64,000 nt of DNA from Pseudoxanthomonas sacheonensis (GTDB lineage: Bacteria > Pseudomonadota > Gammaproteobacteria > Xanthomonadales > Xanthomonadaceae): contig NZ_PDWS01000020.1 of the NCBI RefSeq assembly GCF_010093305.1, positions 1 to 64,000 of the forward strand. Reading direction: 5' to 3'. The notes beneath the pieces are model-generated. The model saw only the letters and a program-made list of their open reading frames with translations. It was not told where the DNA came from and searched no databases. Position numbers and translations under genes: made by a program. Shown here piece after piece: positions 35,707 to 63,293 of the stretch. Position 1 is the first letter of the stretch; each line of letters starts with the position of its first letter.

Positions 35707-35869
35707 GGGGGCTAGTTTAGCGTTTCATGCATGTTGCACGGCATCAAAGTGCCTAACGGGTCACGGTTGCCGCAGACCGCGATTCCCTAAGCTGTGCGGG
35801 TGGGACTAGGAGTTCCGATCCTGTCCAGCCCCCGACACAAATCGCCTGCCAAGGCGGGGAACCTTGAGC

Positions 35870-38170
35870 ATGTCCAGCAGCACTCACAACGCCGAGCATT
35901 ACAGGCGCGATTCGCGGTTGCTGGAGCAAGCGCGCGTCACCGTGGTGCCTCCGCTGGTGGATACCTTCGCCGTGGCCCTTGGCCGCTTCGACGACGCCTT
36001 GTTCGATCGCGCCGAACGCGCCGGCCATTCGCAGATGGCGTTTCTGGATGCGATGCGCGAACTGCGCCGCCGCCGGGATGAAATCATCCGTCGTTTCCGT
36101 ACGCATCTCGAGAAAGCCTGGCGATCGCTGGAGGCCGGCGAGCCGCTTTCGATGGAAAGCGCGCTGGCCGAACCCAGCTCTGGGCTGAGCCTGATTTCCG
36201 ACCAGGAGCTGGAGTCGCGGCTGGCCGCACGCAACCTGGCCAGCGTGATCATGCGCGATTGCAAGCCGGTGCTGCAGCGCCTGGACCGCCGGCTGGGATG
36301 GATCGCCGGCAACCTGGTGCTGGACAACGACCACAACCCCATCGGCCCGGAACATATCGGCGTCGCCATCCACGAAGCCTTCGCTACCTGCGAGCTTTCG
36401 CTGGAAGTGCGCCTGGTGGTCATCAAATTGTGCGAGCGCGACCTGGTGCCCGGCATCGGCCGTATCTACGAAGCGCTTGATCAACGACTCGTGCAATCGG
36501 GGGTGATGCCCGAGATGCCTGCTACCCGTTCGCCCGCCCGGCCGGCGCAGCGCGCGCCGGAGATGACCCGCGAGATGGAGCGGGAGGCGATGGCCGAGGA
36601 AGACGAAGCCAGCGCACCTGCCTGGGCCGCGCGGTTCACCCACCGCATGGCGGGCATGAAAGGCGGCATGCAGGCGTCCATGGGGCATGGCAGTTTCGGC
36701 GATGGCCCTTCCGGCTACGCCGGTGGGGCGCAGGGCGTGCTGCTGGAGGCTTTGCACCACTTGCTGCAGGAATCGCGGGGCAATCGCGAGGTCGCCGAAC
36801 CCGCGCGCGCTTCCTCCGGCGGGGACAACCGTCCGCTGTCGCAGCGCGAAATGCTGTCGGTGCTTTCCCTGCTGCAAAGCACGCCCAGCGCAACGCTGCG
36901 CGCGGCCATCGGCGATACCGGCGAATCGTTGGCCCAGCGCTTGAAGAGCGAAGTGCTCAGCGGCGCCACGCAACTGGGCGTGGATCCTTCGACCGCGCGC
37001 CTGGCGCCGGTGGACGAGGACGCCATCGATCTGGTCGGCATGCTTTTCGACGTGATGCTGGACGAGCGCGATCTGGAAGGCCGCCCGCGCGAGCTGATCG
37101 GCCGGCTGGTGGTTCCTTTCGTCAAGGTCGCGTTGCTGGATCGGCGCATGTTCGTGCAGAAGACCCACCCGGCGCGGCGCTTGCTCAATGTGTTGGCCGA
37201 GGCTTGCGAAGGCAACAACGGCGAGAGCGCGGCCGAGCGCACCCTGATGACCAAGGTCGAGGAAGTGGTGGACCGCCTGACCGCCGAGTTCAACGAGAAC
37301 CTCGCCATTTTCCTGACCCTGGAAGAGGAATTCCGCGATTTCCTGGGCCAGCACAAGCGCCGCATCGAGATCGCCGAACGCCGCGCCGCGGAAATACAGA
37401 GCGGCCAGGAACGCCTGGAAAGTGCGCGCGTGCGCATGGCGCAAGAGCTGTCCGCCCGCCTGGACGGCCGCCATGTGCCGCAGGCCATCGACGATTTCAT
37501 GCGCCAGCCCTGGGCCCACCACGTCACCATGACCGTGCTGCGCGAAGGCGAGGACGGCGATGGTTTGCGCGATGCGCTGGCCCTGGCCGACGGATTGATG
37601 GAGGAGCTCACCGAAGCGCAGCGCCAGATCATCGGCAAGCCGTGGCTGCAAAGCTGGCGGCCTTCGCTGCAGAAGGTGTTCGCCAGCGTGGGCATGAATC
37701 CCGATGCCGCCAGTTCCGCGGTCGATGCGCTGCACGACACTTTGCAGGCGGTGGCGGCTTCGCGCCCGGACCTGGAAAGACAGCTTCCCGAGCTGCCGCA
37801 GGTCGCGCTGCCGAAGGTGGCGGAGGACGATTCGGTTTCCATCCAGTTGGTCGGAGGCACCGATACGCTGGATTTCGACAGCACCGACGCAGACCATTTC
37901 CGCTCGCTGGCGATCGGCACGTGGCTTGACTTCGTGGACAAGGACAACAAGGTGCAGGCCGGCAAGCTGTCGTGGGTCAGCCCGATTTCTTCGCGCCTGC
38001 TGTTCGTCAATCGCCGCGGGGTGCGTTTCTGCGTGGCCTCGCCGGAAGAGCTGGCGATGATGGTGCGCATGGGGCGGCTGCGCACGCATGAGGAAGAGGA
38101 TGCGTTCGATAGCGCTATGCAGGGCGTGATCGAGCGGTTGGACCCGGAAAAGGCGGCCGTCGGCGCCTGA
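35870..38170 (+). CDS. DUF1631 family protein
   Basis: 766 residues, soluble, rich in acidic helices. The family blocks are in place: LSLISDQELESRLAARNLAS (about residue 105), GPEHIGVAIHEAF, LDERDLEGRPRELIGRLVVPFVKVALLDRRMF (about residue 405) and HPARRLLNVLAEACEGN. The C-terminal 100 residues (FRSLAIGTWLDFVDKDNKVQAGKLSWVSP) form a PilZ-like beta unit. DUF1631 proteins are sometimes mis-annotated as thymidine phosphorylase; no such motif is present. A PilZ-like end would suggest c-di-GMP-linked control, which is inference. ATG at 35870; an in-frame TTG lies six bases earlier. Confidence 0.88.
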   Translation: MSSSTHNAEHYRRDSRLLEQARVTVVPPLVDTFAVALGRFDDALFDRAERAGHSQMAFLDAMRELRRRRDEIIRRFRTHLEKAWRSLEAGEPLSMESALAEPSSGLSLISDQELESRLAARNLASVIMRDCKPVLQRLDRRLGWIAGNLVLDNDHNPIGPEHIGVAIHEAFATCELSLEVRLVVIKLCERDLVPGIGRIYEALDQRLVQSGVMPEMPATRSPARPAQRAPEMTREMEREAMAEEDEASAPAWAARFTHRMAGMKGGMQASMGHGSFGDGPSGYAGGAQGVLLEALHHLLQESRGNREVAEPARASSGGDNRPLSQREMLSVLSLLQSTPSATLRAAIGDTGESLAQRLKSEVLSGATQLGVDPSTARLAPVDEDAIDLVGMLFDVMLDERDLEGRPRELIGRLVVPFVKVALLDRRMFVQKTHPARRLLNVLAEACEGNNGESAAERTLMTKVEEVVDRLTAEFNENLAIFLTLEEEFRDFLGQHKRRIEIAERRAAEIQSGQERLESARVRMAQELSARLDGRHVPQAIDDFMRQPWAHHVTMTVLREGEDGDGLRDALALADGLMEELTEAQRQIIGKPWLQSWRPSLQKVFASVGMNPDAASSAVDALHDTLQAVAASRPDLERQLPELPQVALPKVAEDDSVSIQLVGGTDTLDFDSTDADHFRSLAIGTWLDFVDKDNKVQAGKLSWVSPISSRLLFVNRRGVRFCVASPEELAMMVRMGRLRTHEEEDAFDSAMQGVIERLDPEKAAVGA

Positions 38171-38674
38171 TTTCCGCTCGCCTTCGTCTCAGATTCTCAT
38201 GAATCGTCATCCTCGCTAAGGCGGGACCCGGCGACCTACGCACAAGCCGGAAAGAATCGGACGTCATCCCAGCGAAAGCTGGGATCCATCTTGATCTTGC
38301 TTTTTTGCTTTACTGTCTCAGAAGCAGATCAAAAGCGTTTCGCGCTTTGCGCGAGTCACTTTTCTTTGAACGGCAAAGAAAAGTAACCAAAAGAAAGCCG
38401 CCCCCGTATCAAGTACGGGGCAGGCTCTAACGTCGCGCCCGGCGATGAAGCCACCGGGTCCGCAAGCAGGCCGGGAATTTCCGTAAGGCGCATCCTGCGC
38501 CTCCGGAAACGGCGCACATCCCTGTGCGCCGCCCCTGCGGGGTTGATCCCGGCCCGCTTGCCGCGCCTCACGGGGGTGGTTGAGCCAAAGCCAAAGCCCC
38601 CTTTCCCGCAAATCGGCCTTCTTCCCCGCGCTTTGCTAGCATCGGCAGTCTGGAATCGGACCGGTGAGGGGAAC
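38171..38674. other. 504-base intergenic region with dispersed, multi-hairpin repeat element
   Basis: No convincing gene. Right after DUF1631 come family C-like pieces (38211-38230, 38260-38298). From about 38341 follows a stretch with aacggcaaagaaaagtaacc and then four hairpins: 38402-38420 (ccccgta stem), 38478-38509 (outer tttccg/cggaaa with inner ggcgca/tgcgcc), 38511-38530 (ggcgcac stem) and 38532-38542 (cccc/gggg). Compact hairpins in a row suggest a structured RNA or a mobile repeat. The final 70 bases precede pntA. Confidence 0.75.
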
Positions 38675-39769
38675 ATGGCGATTGAAGTGCTGGTGTTGAA
38701 GGAGTCGGCGGCGGGTGAGCGTCGCGTGGCCGCCACTCCGGAAACGGTGAAGAAGCTGGTGGCTGCCGGCGCCAGCATCAAGGTCGAACCCGGTGCTGGA
38801 CTCGGCGCCGGTTTCGTCGATCAGGCTTATCTCGATGCGGGTGCCCAGCTGGCGACGGCCGATACGCCGGCGCAGGCCGATCTGGTGCTTTGCGTGCAAT
38901 CGCCCGATCCTGCGGCCATCGGACAATTGAAGCAGGGTGCGACCCTGGTCGGCATGCTGCAGCCGCAAGCCGACGCGGCACGCGGCGAGGCGCTCAAGGC
39001 GCGCGGCATTCTTTCGTTTCCGCTGGAAAAGCTGCCGCGCACCACGCGCGCGCAGGCGATGGACGTGCTCAGCTCGCAAGCCGGCATGGCGGGCTACAAG
39101 GCGGTGTTGATCGCCGCGCAGCTGGCGCCGCGCTTCTTCCCCATGCTGACCACCGCGGCCGGCACCATCCGTCCGTCCAAGGTCTTGATCGTCGGCGCCG
39201 GCGTGGCCGGCCTGCAGGCCATCGCCACCAGCAAGCGCCTGGGCGCGCAGGTGGAGGGCTTCGACGTGCGCCCGGAAACGCGCGAACAGATCGAATCGCT
39301 GGGCGGCAAGTTCCTGGACCTGGGCGTCAGCGCGGCGGGCGAGGGCGGCTATGCGCGCCAGCTCACCGACGAGGAGCGTGCCGAACAGCAACGCCGCCTG
39401 GCCGAGCACCTGAAGGGCATCGACGTGGTGGTGTGCACCGCCGCCGTGCCAGGGCGTCCTGCGCCGAAGATCATCACCATGCCGATGGTGGAGGCGATGA
39501 AGCCCGGCAGTGTGATCGTGGATCTGGCTGCCGAAACGGGCGGCAACTGCGAAGCGACCCGGCCGGGGGAAACCATCGCGCACAACGGGGTGACCGTCGC
39601 CGGTCCGCTCAATTTGGCCAGCATGGGCGCGGTGCACGCCAGCGAGATGTATTCGCGCAACGTGTTCAATTTCGTTTCCTTGTTCGTCAAGGAGGGCGCG
39701 ATCGATTTCGACTGGAACGATGAGCTGCTCGCGAAGACGCGGTGGCCGGAAGCGGTTGCGGCGGCATGA
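38675..39769 (+). CDS. pntAA: NAD(P) transhydrogenase subunit alpha part 1
   Basis: 364 residues. This is the soluble NAD(H)-binding domain I of the proton-translocating transhydrogenase, which makes NADPH from NADH using the proton gradient. Visible: EVLVLKESAAGERRVAATPETVKKL, PRTTRAQAMDVLSSQAGMAGYKAVL (about residues 120-145), the nucleotide fold VLIVGAGVAGLQAIATSKRLGAQV (about residue 170) and VIVDLAAETGGNCE. It is a three-subunit type (PntAA, PntAB, PntB), but alpha-2 and beta are 2 kb further on behind a reverse-strand block. Confidence 0.95.
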   Translation: MAIEVLVLKESAAGERRVAATPETVKKLVAAGASIKVEPGAGLGAGFVDQAYLDAGAQLATADTPAQADLVLCVQSPDPAAIGQLKQGATLVGMLQPQADAARGEALKARGILSFPLEKLPRTTRAQAMDVLSSQAGMAGYKAVLIAAQLAPRFFPMLTTAAGTIRPSKVLIVGAGVAGLQAIATSKRLGAQVEGFDVRPETREQIESLGGKFLDLGVSAAGEGGYARQLTDEERAEQQRRLAEHLKGIDVVVCTAAVPGRPAPKIITMPMVEAMKPGSVIVDLAAETGGNCEATRPGETIAHNGVTVAGPLNLASMGAVHASEMYSRNVFNFVSLFVKEGAIDFDWNDELLAKTRWPEAVAAA

Positions 39770-63215: not shown

Positions 63216-63293
63216 TGGGGCGTCGCCAAGAGGCCTAAGGCACCGGGTTTTGATCCCGGCATTTCGTAGGTTCGAATCCTACCGCCCCAGCCA
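63216..63293 (+). tRNA. tRNA-Gln (anticodon TTG)
   Basis: Acceptor stem TGGGGCG (63216-63222) pairs with CGCCCCA (63283-63289), followed by G and an encoded CCA. Anticodon stem CCGGG/CCCGG encloses the loop TTTTGAT with anticodon TTG at 63250-63252. T-loop GTTCGAATC is present. Located between ispE and prs, its usual place. Charged by the GlnS encoded at 19934. Confidence 0.96.

Follow-up and report, generated by a model that had tools for sequence, protein, structure and literature searches.

Between the DUF1631 gene and the next gene downstream, which encodes both AlaDh/PNT domains, the Pseudoxanthomonas sacheonensis DNA analyzed here (64,000 nucleotides, referred to as the window) holds a structured element that we take, with a probability of about 0.6, to be a non-autonomous dispersed DNA cassette spreading or recombining between intergenic sites, the conserved property being its single-strand fold. 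Its copies are repeated, mosaic, nearly always intergenic and covarying; they are absent from the same site in some relatives, and they are exchanged and sometimes inverted. The family is real and apparently undescribed; it falls within the known kind of structured intergenic repeats that are dispersed in genomes, and its pseudoknot core is unusual. Exact-string and topical searches of the open-access literature found no earlier description of the element.

An earlier note on this DNA had described four perfect hairpins in a stretch that no gene explains. All four stems (38402-38420, 38478-38509, 38511-38530 and 38532-38542) are present at exactly the coordinates given, and the element does sit between two genes (Table 1). 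The observation was correct but understated, an additional AT-rich hairpin (P1) and an enclosing stem (H5) having been overlooked. One of the four hairpins, at 38402-38420 (CCCCGTA/TACGGGG), belongs to a separate 24-nt insertion, and the A-rich motif that the note had pointed out consists of the 3' arm of P1 and the strand after P1. Folding of the 244 nt from 38331 to 38574 gave a z score of -7.1 as RNA and of -9.2 as DNA relative to dinucleotide shuffles, with 0 of 200 shuffles equaling the value in each case. An open frame on the minus strand (38318-38611) overlaps the element; hypothetical proteins annotated over such copies, of which this frame is an example, may be spurious.

Table 1. Features of the element and its neighbors (positions in the window)
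Feature	Position	Strand	Remark
DUF1631 gene (PF07793)	35864-38170	+	Upstream neighbor of the element
CGTC-headed palindromic repeat, REP-like	38205-38230	+	Outer neighbor in the mosaic; read directly; resembles the CGTC/dRS3 class as given in the available part of PMC3733652
Second CGTC-headed palindromic repeat	38262-38288	+	Adjoins the cassette; same module beside several other copies
T-rich low-complexity stretch, CTTGATCTTGC type	38289-38330	+	5' side of the core
Hairpin H1, TCGCGC-TTT-GCGCGA	38340-38354	+	
Hairpin P1, 11 bp, AT-rich, ACTTTTCTTTG-AACGG-CAAAGAAAAGT	38358-38384	+	Overlooked in the earlier note
A-rich strand AAAAGAAA	38389-38396	+	Mirrors the P1 purine arm; possible triple-helix third strand; covariation with P1
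Pseudoknot P2, 3' side, GCCG	38397-38400	+	Pairs with P1 loop 38371-38374; register and shuffle tests
Inserted 24-nt micro-hairpin CCGTATCAAGTACGGGGCAGGCTC	38404-38427	+	Missing here in 16 of 20 aligned copies
3' multi-hairpin domain, 47 modeled base pairs	38430-38574	+	Alignment and covariance model
Hairpin H4	38438-38458	+	Covariation
Long stem H5, 14 bp (38462-38475 with 38548-38561)	38462-38561	+	Encloses H6, H7 and H8
Hairpin H6, TTTCCG..CGGAAA	38478-38509	+	Read directly; covariation
Hairpin H7, GGCGCACA..TGTGCGCC	38510-38531	+	Read directly; covariation
Hairpin H8, CCCC/GGGG	38532-38542	+	Read directly; covariation
CAAAGC low-complexity tail	38575-38606	+	After the core; two units in the window
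Gene with both AlaDh/PNT domains	start 38675	+	Downstream neighbor; pntA site

We considered whether the low-complexity arms, namely, the T-rich stretch and the 3' tail, pair as an outer stem. Because the pairing score of arms from the same copy (8.18) equaled that obtained when copies were swapped (8.24), this idea was rejected, the two arms showing no copy-specific complementarity. The CAAAGC hexanucleotide tail behaves as a variable-number repeat; the same-site copy of the sister genome (L265) has seven units versus the two of the window. Outside the Xanthomonadales, an H1-like hairpin upstream of P1 was weak, with a mean stem of 4.5 versus 3.9 in shuffles.

A genome-wide search for copies, which the earlier note had proposed as a check, returned 41 matches to 38300-38640 in the own genome, 20 of them long and 21 of 27 to 32 nt. 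The long matches include the window itself, and the other 19 are 73 to 93% identical to it, one being truncated. The short matches represent the 24-nt insertion CCGTATCAAGTACGGGGCAGGCTC and not the A-rich motif. At the place that it occupies in the window, the insertion is found in 4 of 20 aligned copies (19 own and one from a relative), two of which (L017 and L020) hold a variant in the H6 loop too, and in 8 of 10 places inspected the micro-hairpin lies directly after GCCC in a hairpin loop of another repeat. CCGTATCAAGTACGGGGCAGGCTC is a mobile palindrome that lands in loops of other palindromes; besides the window, its insertions were seen at L017, L020, L034, L035, L047-L051, L053 and L055. 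Other small hairpins (the TTGACCAGCCATTCGGCTGTTGAAAGC type and CCCTTCGACAAGCTCAGGGCATG) are inserted in or beside H1 and P1 in relatives (L265, L266, L267 and L113) and in one own copy (L020).

The 3' domain was detected with a covariance model in 36 of the 38 genomes of the genus Pseudoxanthomonas, and in 22 of 151 genomes and 12 of 64 genera of the order. A first alignment of 38430-38574 comprised 18 copies, one from a relative and 17 from the own genome; of the 20 own long matches, the truncated copy and the two with a second insertion were left out. Across the 47 named pairs, 97.3% of the cells pair in these copies, and 16 pairs change on both sides; double-sided changes amounted to 73 cells, compared to 21.6 after shuffling and at most 11 in slid controls. 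Scanning 90 sequence sources with the covariance model yielded 138 matches, giving 129 distinct rows; each of the 47 pairs shows a double-sided change in at least one row, with 1059 double-sided cells against 283.8 in shuffled and at most 154 in slid controls. The description of the stretch as structured is thus upheld by very strong covariation, and covarying pairs among copies, whose absence had been set beforehand as a possible refutation, are present.

The kind of pairing that is tolerated bears on whether the fold is one of RNA or of DNA. For these counts, three of the 138 matches were dropped as opposite-strand matches to the same palindromes, leaving 126 distinct rows, in which G-U accounts for 1.3% of the cells of the 3' domain (72 of 5631) and A-C for 1.8% (102). 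RNase P RNA of the same order, a single RNA family that served as our yardstick (25 of 30 loci, folded by RNAalifold), has 9.2% G-U (220 of 2389) and 0.33% A-C (8). G-U cells are thus about seven times rarer than in this one yardstick family, which does not fit the G-U tolerance expected of a functional RNA, and over the whole 3' domain they are not commoner than A-C cells. Hints as to the strand conflict: A-C exceeded G-U in the first 20 copies, pointing to the minus strand, P2 points to the plus strand, and the larger set has no clear preference. From the rarity of G-U relative to RNase P RNA we infer that pairing is kept in DNA and not in RNA. Complementarity would then be preserved in DNA either by selection on the folded DNA strand or by template switching or conversion between the arms.

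The P1 hairpin, the A-rich strand and the P2 pseudoknot constitute a second, more widely distributed module. When the species-genome collection was searched for exact matches to ACTTTYCTTTGN{4,8}CAAAGRAAAGTAACCAA, at least 118 stretches were found; among the matches listed are Xanthomonas, Stenotrophomonas, Lysobacter, Dyella, Luteimonas, Frateuria, Burkholderia, Silvimonas, Methylomonas, Halopseudomonas, Psychromonas, Aggregatibacter and Actinobacillus. Also among the matches listed are MAGs labeled Desulfobacterales, Desulfuromonadales, Selenomonadales and Ruminococcus; since MAG labels can be wrong, there is less certainty about the spread of the module outside Proteobacteria. The statement of the earlier note that the A-rich motif is dispersed in many proteobacterial genomes was borne out, its exact form being uncommon: the module pattern was present in 10 of the 398 genomes and 8 of the 212 genera of a phylum sample, with no reversed control pattern among the matches listed. 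A looser search matched 19 plasmid or chromid records, and seven Paraburkholderia plasmid or chromid records held at least 38 to 40 places each. Because four of the five records examined for gene context were almost unannotated, that of Pasteurella multocida alone was counted. In the P. multocida record (L336), the module begins 7 nt past the dapF stop codon, in sense orientation, ahead of the DUF484-xerC gene pair. A phage-borne element was also considered and rejected, as 50,697 phage records gave no match to 38340-38402 at an E value of 0.01 and the viral_contigs collection gave no exact match of the module pattern.

We analyzed pairing within the module in 114 distinct instances from the collected loci. 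The P1 loop can form at least four Watson-Crick pairs with the bases that follow the A-rich strand (P2) in 53 of 76 distinct cases, while 300 shuffles of loops among instances gave a mean of 18 and a maximum of 28. For the 67 instances with 6-nt loops, 229 of 335 positions pair in the fixed register, compared with 122, 81 and 101 when the register is slid by -1, +1 and +2, respectively. Read in mirror order, the A-rich strand has the sequence of the P1 purine arm, and the two vary in step (TTTCTCTT with AAAGAGAA, TTTTTCTTT with AAAAAGAAA). This mirror relation is perfect in 15 of 22 distinct non-standard combinations (mean of 4.8 and maximum of 10 in 1000 shuffles) and in 21 of 33 of all distinct combinations. 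A triple helix in an H-type pseudoknot would require such a mirror strand, and the A-rich strand is a possible third strand of a triple helix with P1; viewed from the minus strand, this third strand would consist of pyrimidines and run parallel to the purine arm. Covariation thus shows the stems of the 3' domain, the P2 pseudoknot and the mirroring of P1 by the A-rich strand. In 19 of the 33 instances from outside the Xanthomonadales, the 220 nt that follow the module fold better than shuffles, with z scores of at most -2, versus 3 of 33 control stretches; in the four Burkholderia instances these 220 nt do not fold better than shuffles.

The behavior of the element at given sites was followed in relatives. 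The stretch upstream of pntA was fetched from 20 of the remaining 37 Pseudoxanthomonas genomes, and 16 of the 20 were read (L270, L280, L282 and L284 were left out); the element is present in three (L265, L266 and L267) and absent in 13, one of these element-free sites (L276) having a different upstream gene. In the sister species, a close relative in the same genus (G045), 20 copies were compared together with their flanks. All 18 single own loci (the window, L016-L025 and L027-L033) are matched by a copy at the corresponding site of the sister species; L026, a paired locus that the flanks did not resolve, stands outside this count. Among the 17 loci with a measurable core, the same-site copy was the best match at 5, while a copy from another site was better at 12. 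The window core, for instance, is 93.8% identical to the sister copy at its own site and 98.0% identical to the copy of another site. A tree built from the 34 cores contains three well-supported forks that unite copies of different sites and one that unites same-site copies; same-site sister pairs number four in total, and support is weak for 14 of the 31 inner branches. Moreover, 4 of the 17 cassettes (L021, L029, L031 and L032) are inverted relative to flanks that are 91 to 96% identical, and at the inverted loci the neighboring repeat modules had switched sides together with the cassette. Because the best match often lies at another site and because cassettes are inverted, we conclude that the sites persist and that their occupants change both place and orientation. 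Conversion between copies would not by itself turn a cassette around; an inversion between the repeats on its flanks, or a new insertion at a favored site, would. The mobile repeat considered in the earlier note is therefore supported, given the 20 long matches in the own genome, the presence or absence at the same site, and the exchange and inversion between the two sister species.

With regard to the hallmarks of a MITE (terminal inverted repeats and target-site duplication), no target duplication and no clean empty site or insertion boundary was seen at the pntA site or at three sites with a copy only in the sister species, and the flanking arms, as described above, lack copy-specific complementarity. 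At these sister-only sites (L328, L330 and L332 versus L340-L342), the own intergenic stretch differs along its full length, and one of these sites has a 684-nt stretch in its place; it looks as if entire intergenic regions had been rewritten.

Gene context was scored at 55 loci with a gene caller trained on the whole window (84% of which was covered), leaving out 10 paired and 10 edge cases. Only 1 of 56 instances lies inside a predicted ORF. The own genome gave 11 tandem loci in sense and 1 in antisense, with 3 convergent and 2 divergent; loci of the genus or order gave 6 sense, 1 antisense, 2 convergent and 2 divergent, and other named Xanthomonadales gave 5 sense, 9 antisense, 11 convergent and 2 divergent. 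For all scored Xanthomonadales, this amounts to 22 sense versus 11 antisense (binomial P = 0.08). A codon model from the window placed the own loci at 8 sense, 1 antisense, 6 convergent, 1 divergent and 3 unclear. A caller self-trained on each short locus counted 5 sense and 6 antisense among own loci and 25 and 21 among exact-scan loci; these counts were disregarded, since loci of this length are too short to train a caller. The bias toward sense, as seen with the codon-model and window-trained callers, is confined to the own genus.

These data allow the competing explanations to be weighed. A structured RNA, i.e., a 3'-UTR element or small RNA in which a triple-helix pseudoknot and hairpins stabilize, process or regulate transcripts, would account for the strong covariation of the 3' domain, for P2 and the mirror strand, for the sense bias in the own genus and for the sense placement of the P. 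multocida module just after dapF. We nevertheless regard it as unlikely, in view of the deficit of G-U relative to RNase P RNA, the lack of a sense bias in the other named Xanthomonadales (5 to 9) and the inversion of 4 of 17 cassettes in the sister species. Nor does the element match a known Rfam family: at gathering score, the sole match of Rfam 15 in the window was a tRNA (63216-63290), and relaxed thresholds gave no meaningful weak match. The RNA that the earlier note had suggested is thus not favored over DNA, G-U pairs being rare, the sense bias being limited to the own genus and cassettes being flipped in the sister species. That the hairpins act singly, as a repeated transcription terminator or mRNA-end protector, is improbable. 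The element is intergenic, its hairpins are stable and 16 of the 55 scored loci lie between convergent genes, but a simple consensus scan of 37500-39600 for intrinsic terminators (a GC-rich hairpin followed by a T run) found one such site versus 1.6 in shuffles, and a terminator needs no pseudoknot, mirror strand or closed multi-stem domain, yet these covary. A promoter scan gave nothing above chance.

A further explanation, which we find very improbable, takes the element for a REP/BIME derivative that the host's RAYT transposases mobilize. In the GTAG REP/RAYT system, the transposase gene is flanked by two inverted repeat copies, according to the available part of PMC2817692. The own genome has eight Y1_Tnp matches, seven of them above the cut-off; four of the genes (L232-L235) are flanked by classical GTAG REPs (GTAGGAGCGGC type) in inverted pairs, which lie no more than about 250 nt away on either side, and REP-like CGTC modules adjoin many copies of the element. 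However, the P1 core, allowing up to two mismatches, occurs at none of the eight Y1_Tnp loci within about 1.5 kb on each side, and the aligned cores start with AAAAGCGTTTCGCGC and have no GTAG head, so that in this genome a RAYT-flanked GTAG REP is disfavored.

As far as the available parts of PMC2817692 and PMC3733652 go, the element resembles GTAG REPs and BIMEs in being dispersed, palindromic and extragenic, often in inverted pairs and with compensatory changes in stems, but differs in that its core measures about 220 nt and combines several stems with a pseudoknot, where those repeats form a single hairpin of 20 to 40 nt, as well as in lacking a GTAG head and in not lying beside the transposase genes of its own genome. 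CGTC repeats, to which the dRS3 of Neisseria belongs, have no dedicated transposase according to the accessible portion of PMC3733652. With these and with the Neisseria mosaic intergenic regions as described there, the element shares the interleaving of repeats into a mosaic, and many copies have CGTC repeats beside them; several loci show a fixed succession of CGTC repeat, CCTCCCTTGC-type module, core and micro-hairpin. The likeness to the Neisseria mosaic element is one of layout and not of shared sequence. A CGTC REP of the dRS3 type was rejected, since the core itself, beside which two CGTC repeats lie (at 38205 and 38262), does not start with CGTC, being also larger and differently built than the CGTC REPs in that part of the source. 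Like ERIC and RU-1, RU-2 and RU-3, the element is a non-coding intergenic repeat of a kind of 100 to 250 nt regarded as mobile, but it is set apart from them, as described in the available part of PMC2759123, by a pseudoknot module found in many bacterial families. Stem-loop families are also treated in the accessible part of PMC2267715.

Telomerase RNA contains a triple-helix pseudoknot, in which the loop strand of an H-type pseudoknot matches the stem base for base. The element shares this relation of loop strand and stem but, unlike telomerase RNA, has few G-U pairs and many copies per genome, and it is known here as DNA sequence alone. That pseudoknots with a matching loop strand are known mainly from RNA counts against a DNA cassette, as do the G-U cells at the four central positions of P2, which outnumber A-C cells by 10 to 3 (partly from related rows), the excess of G-U (1.5%) over A-C (0.8%) when the local hairpins of the 3' domain are taken by themselves, the predominance of sense among tandem copies of the own genus (11 to 1, and 6 to 1 in genus and order), and the use of a single RNA family as yardstick for G-U. 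No mobilizing enzyme and no target duplication or clean empty site was found, which likewise argues against it.

If the element is nonetheless a DNA cassette, a trans-acting enzyme may handle the folded single DNA strand, either extruded or exposed on the lagging strand, and the form recognized would be the hairpins together with a triplex-braced pseudoknot. Alternatively, template switching and recombination between arms and copies may keep correcting the palindromes. Effects on the mRNA ends of neighboring genes are possible and would be secondary. More speculatively, and doubtful in our estimation, the copies could represent an unrecognized class of mobile elements across several phyla, whose mobile form would be a single DNA strand with a triplex-braced pseudoknot and a multi-hairpin body, recognized by shape and not by sequence, and which would exchange and invert cassettes between fixed intergenic sites. 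Dispersed palindromic repeats were already known; here, cassettes within one genus are swapped and inverted between fixed sites, and a non-coding repeat retains a pseudoknot and a third strand matching base for base in distant bacteria despite sequence change. Were the fold one of DNA, this would point to an enzyme or process acting on folded single-stranded DNA; were it one of RNA, it would define a large RNA class that is not listed in Rfam 15.

Other arrangements of repeats were seen in the window and in relatives. Pairs of GTAG REPs are scattered through the window (near 544, 17547, 18686, 31719, 34118 and 55046). Inverted pairs of the element itself are frequent in relatives (L036-L046 and L094-L101), with the 3' ends facing each other in several genomes of the own genus and the 5' ends facing each other across about 325 nt in another genus. 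Finally, short forms of the 3' domain (L102-L105) occur in two genomes from a single other genus of the order and are closed by long, near-perfect terminal inverted repeats, the sequence of which differs between the genomes while complementarity is kept.
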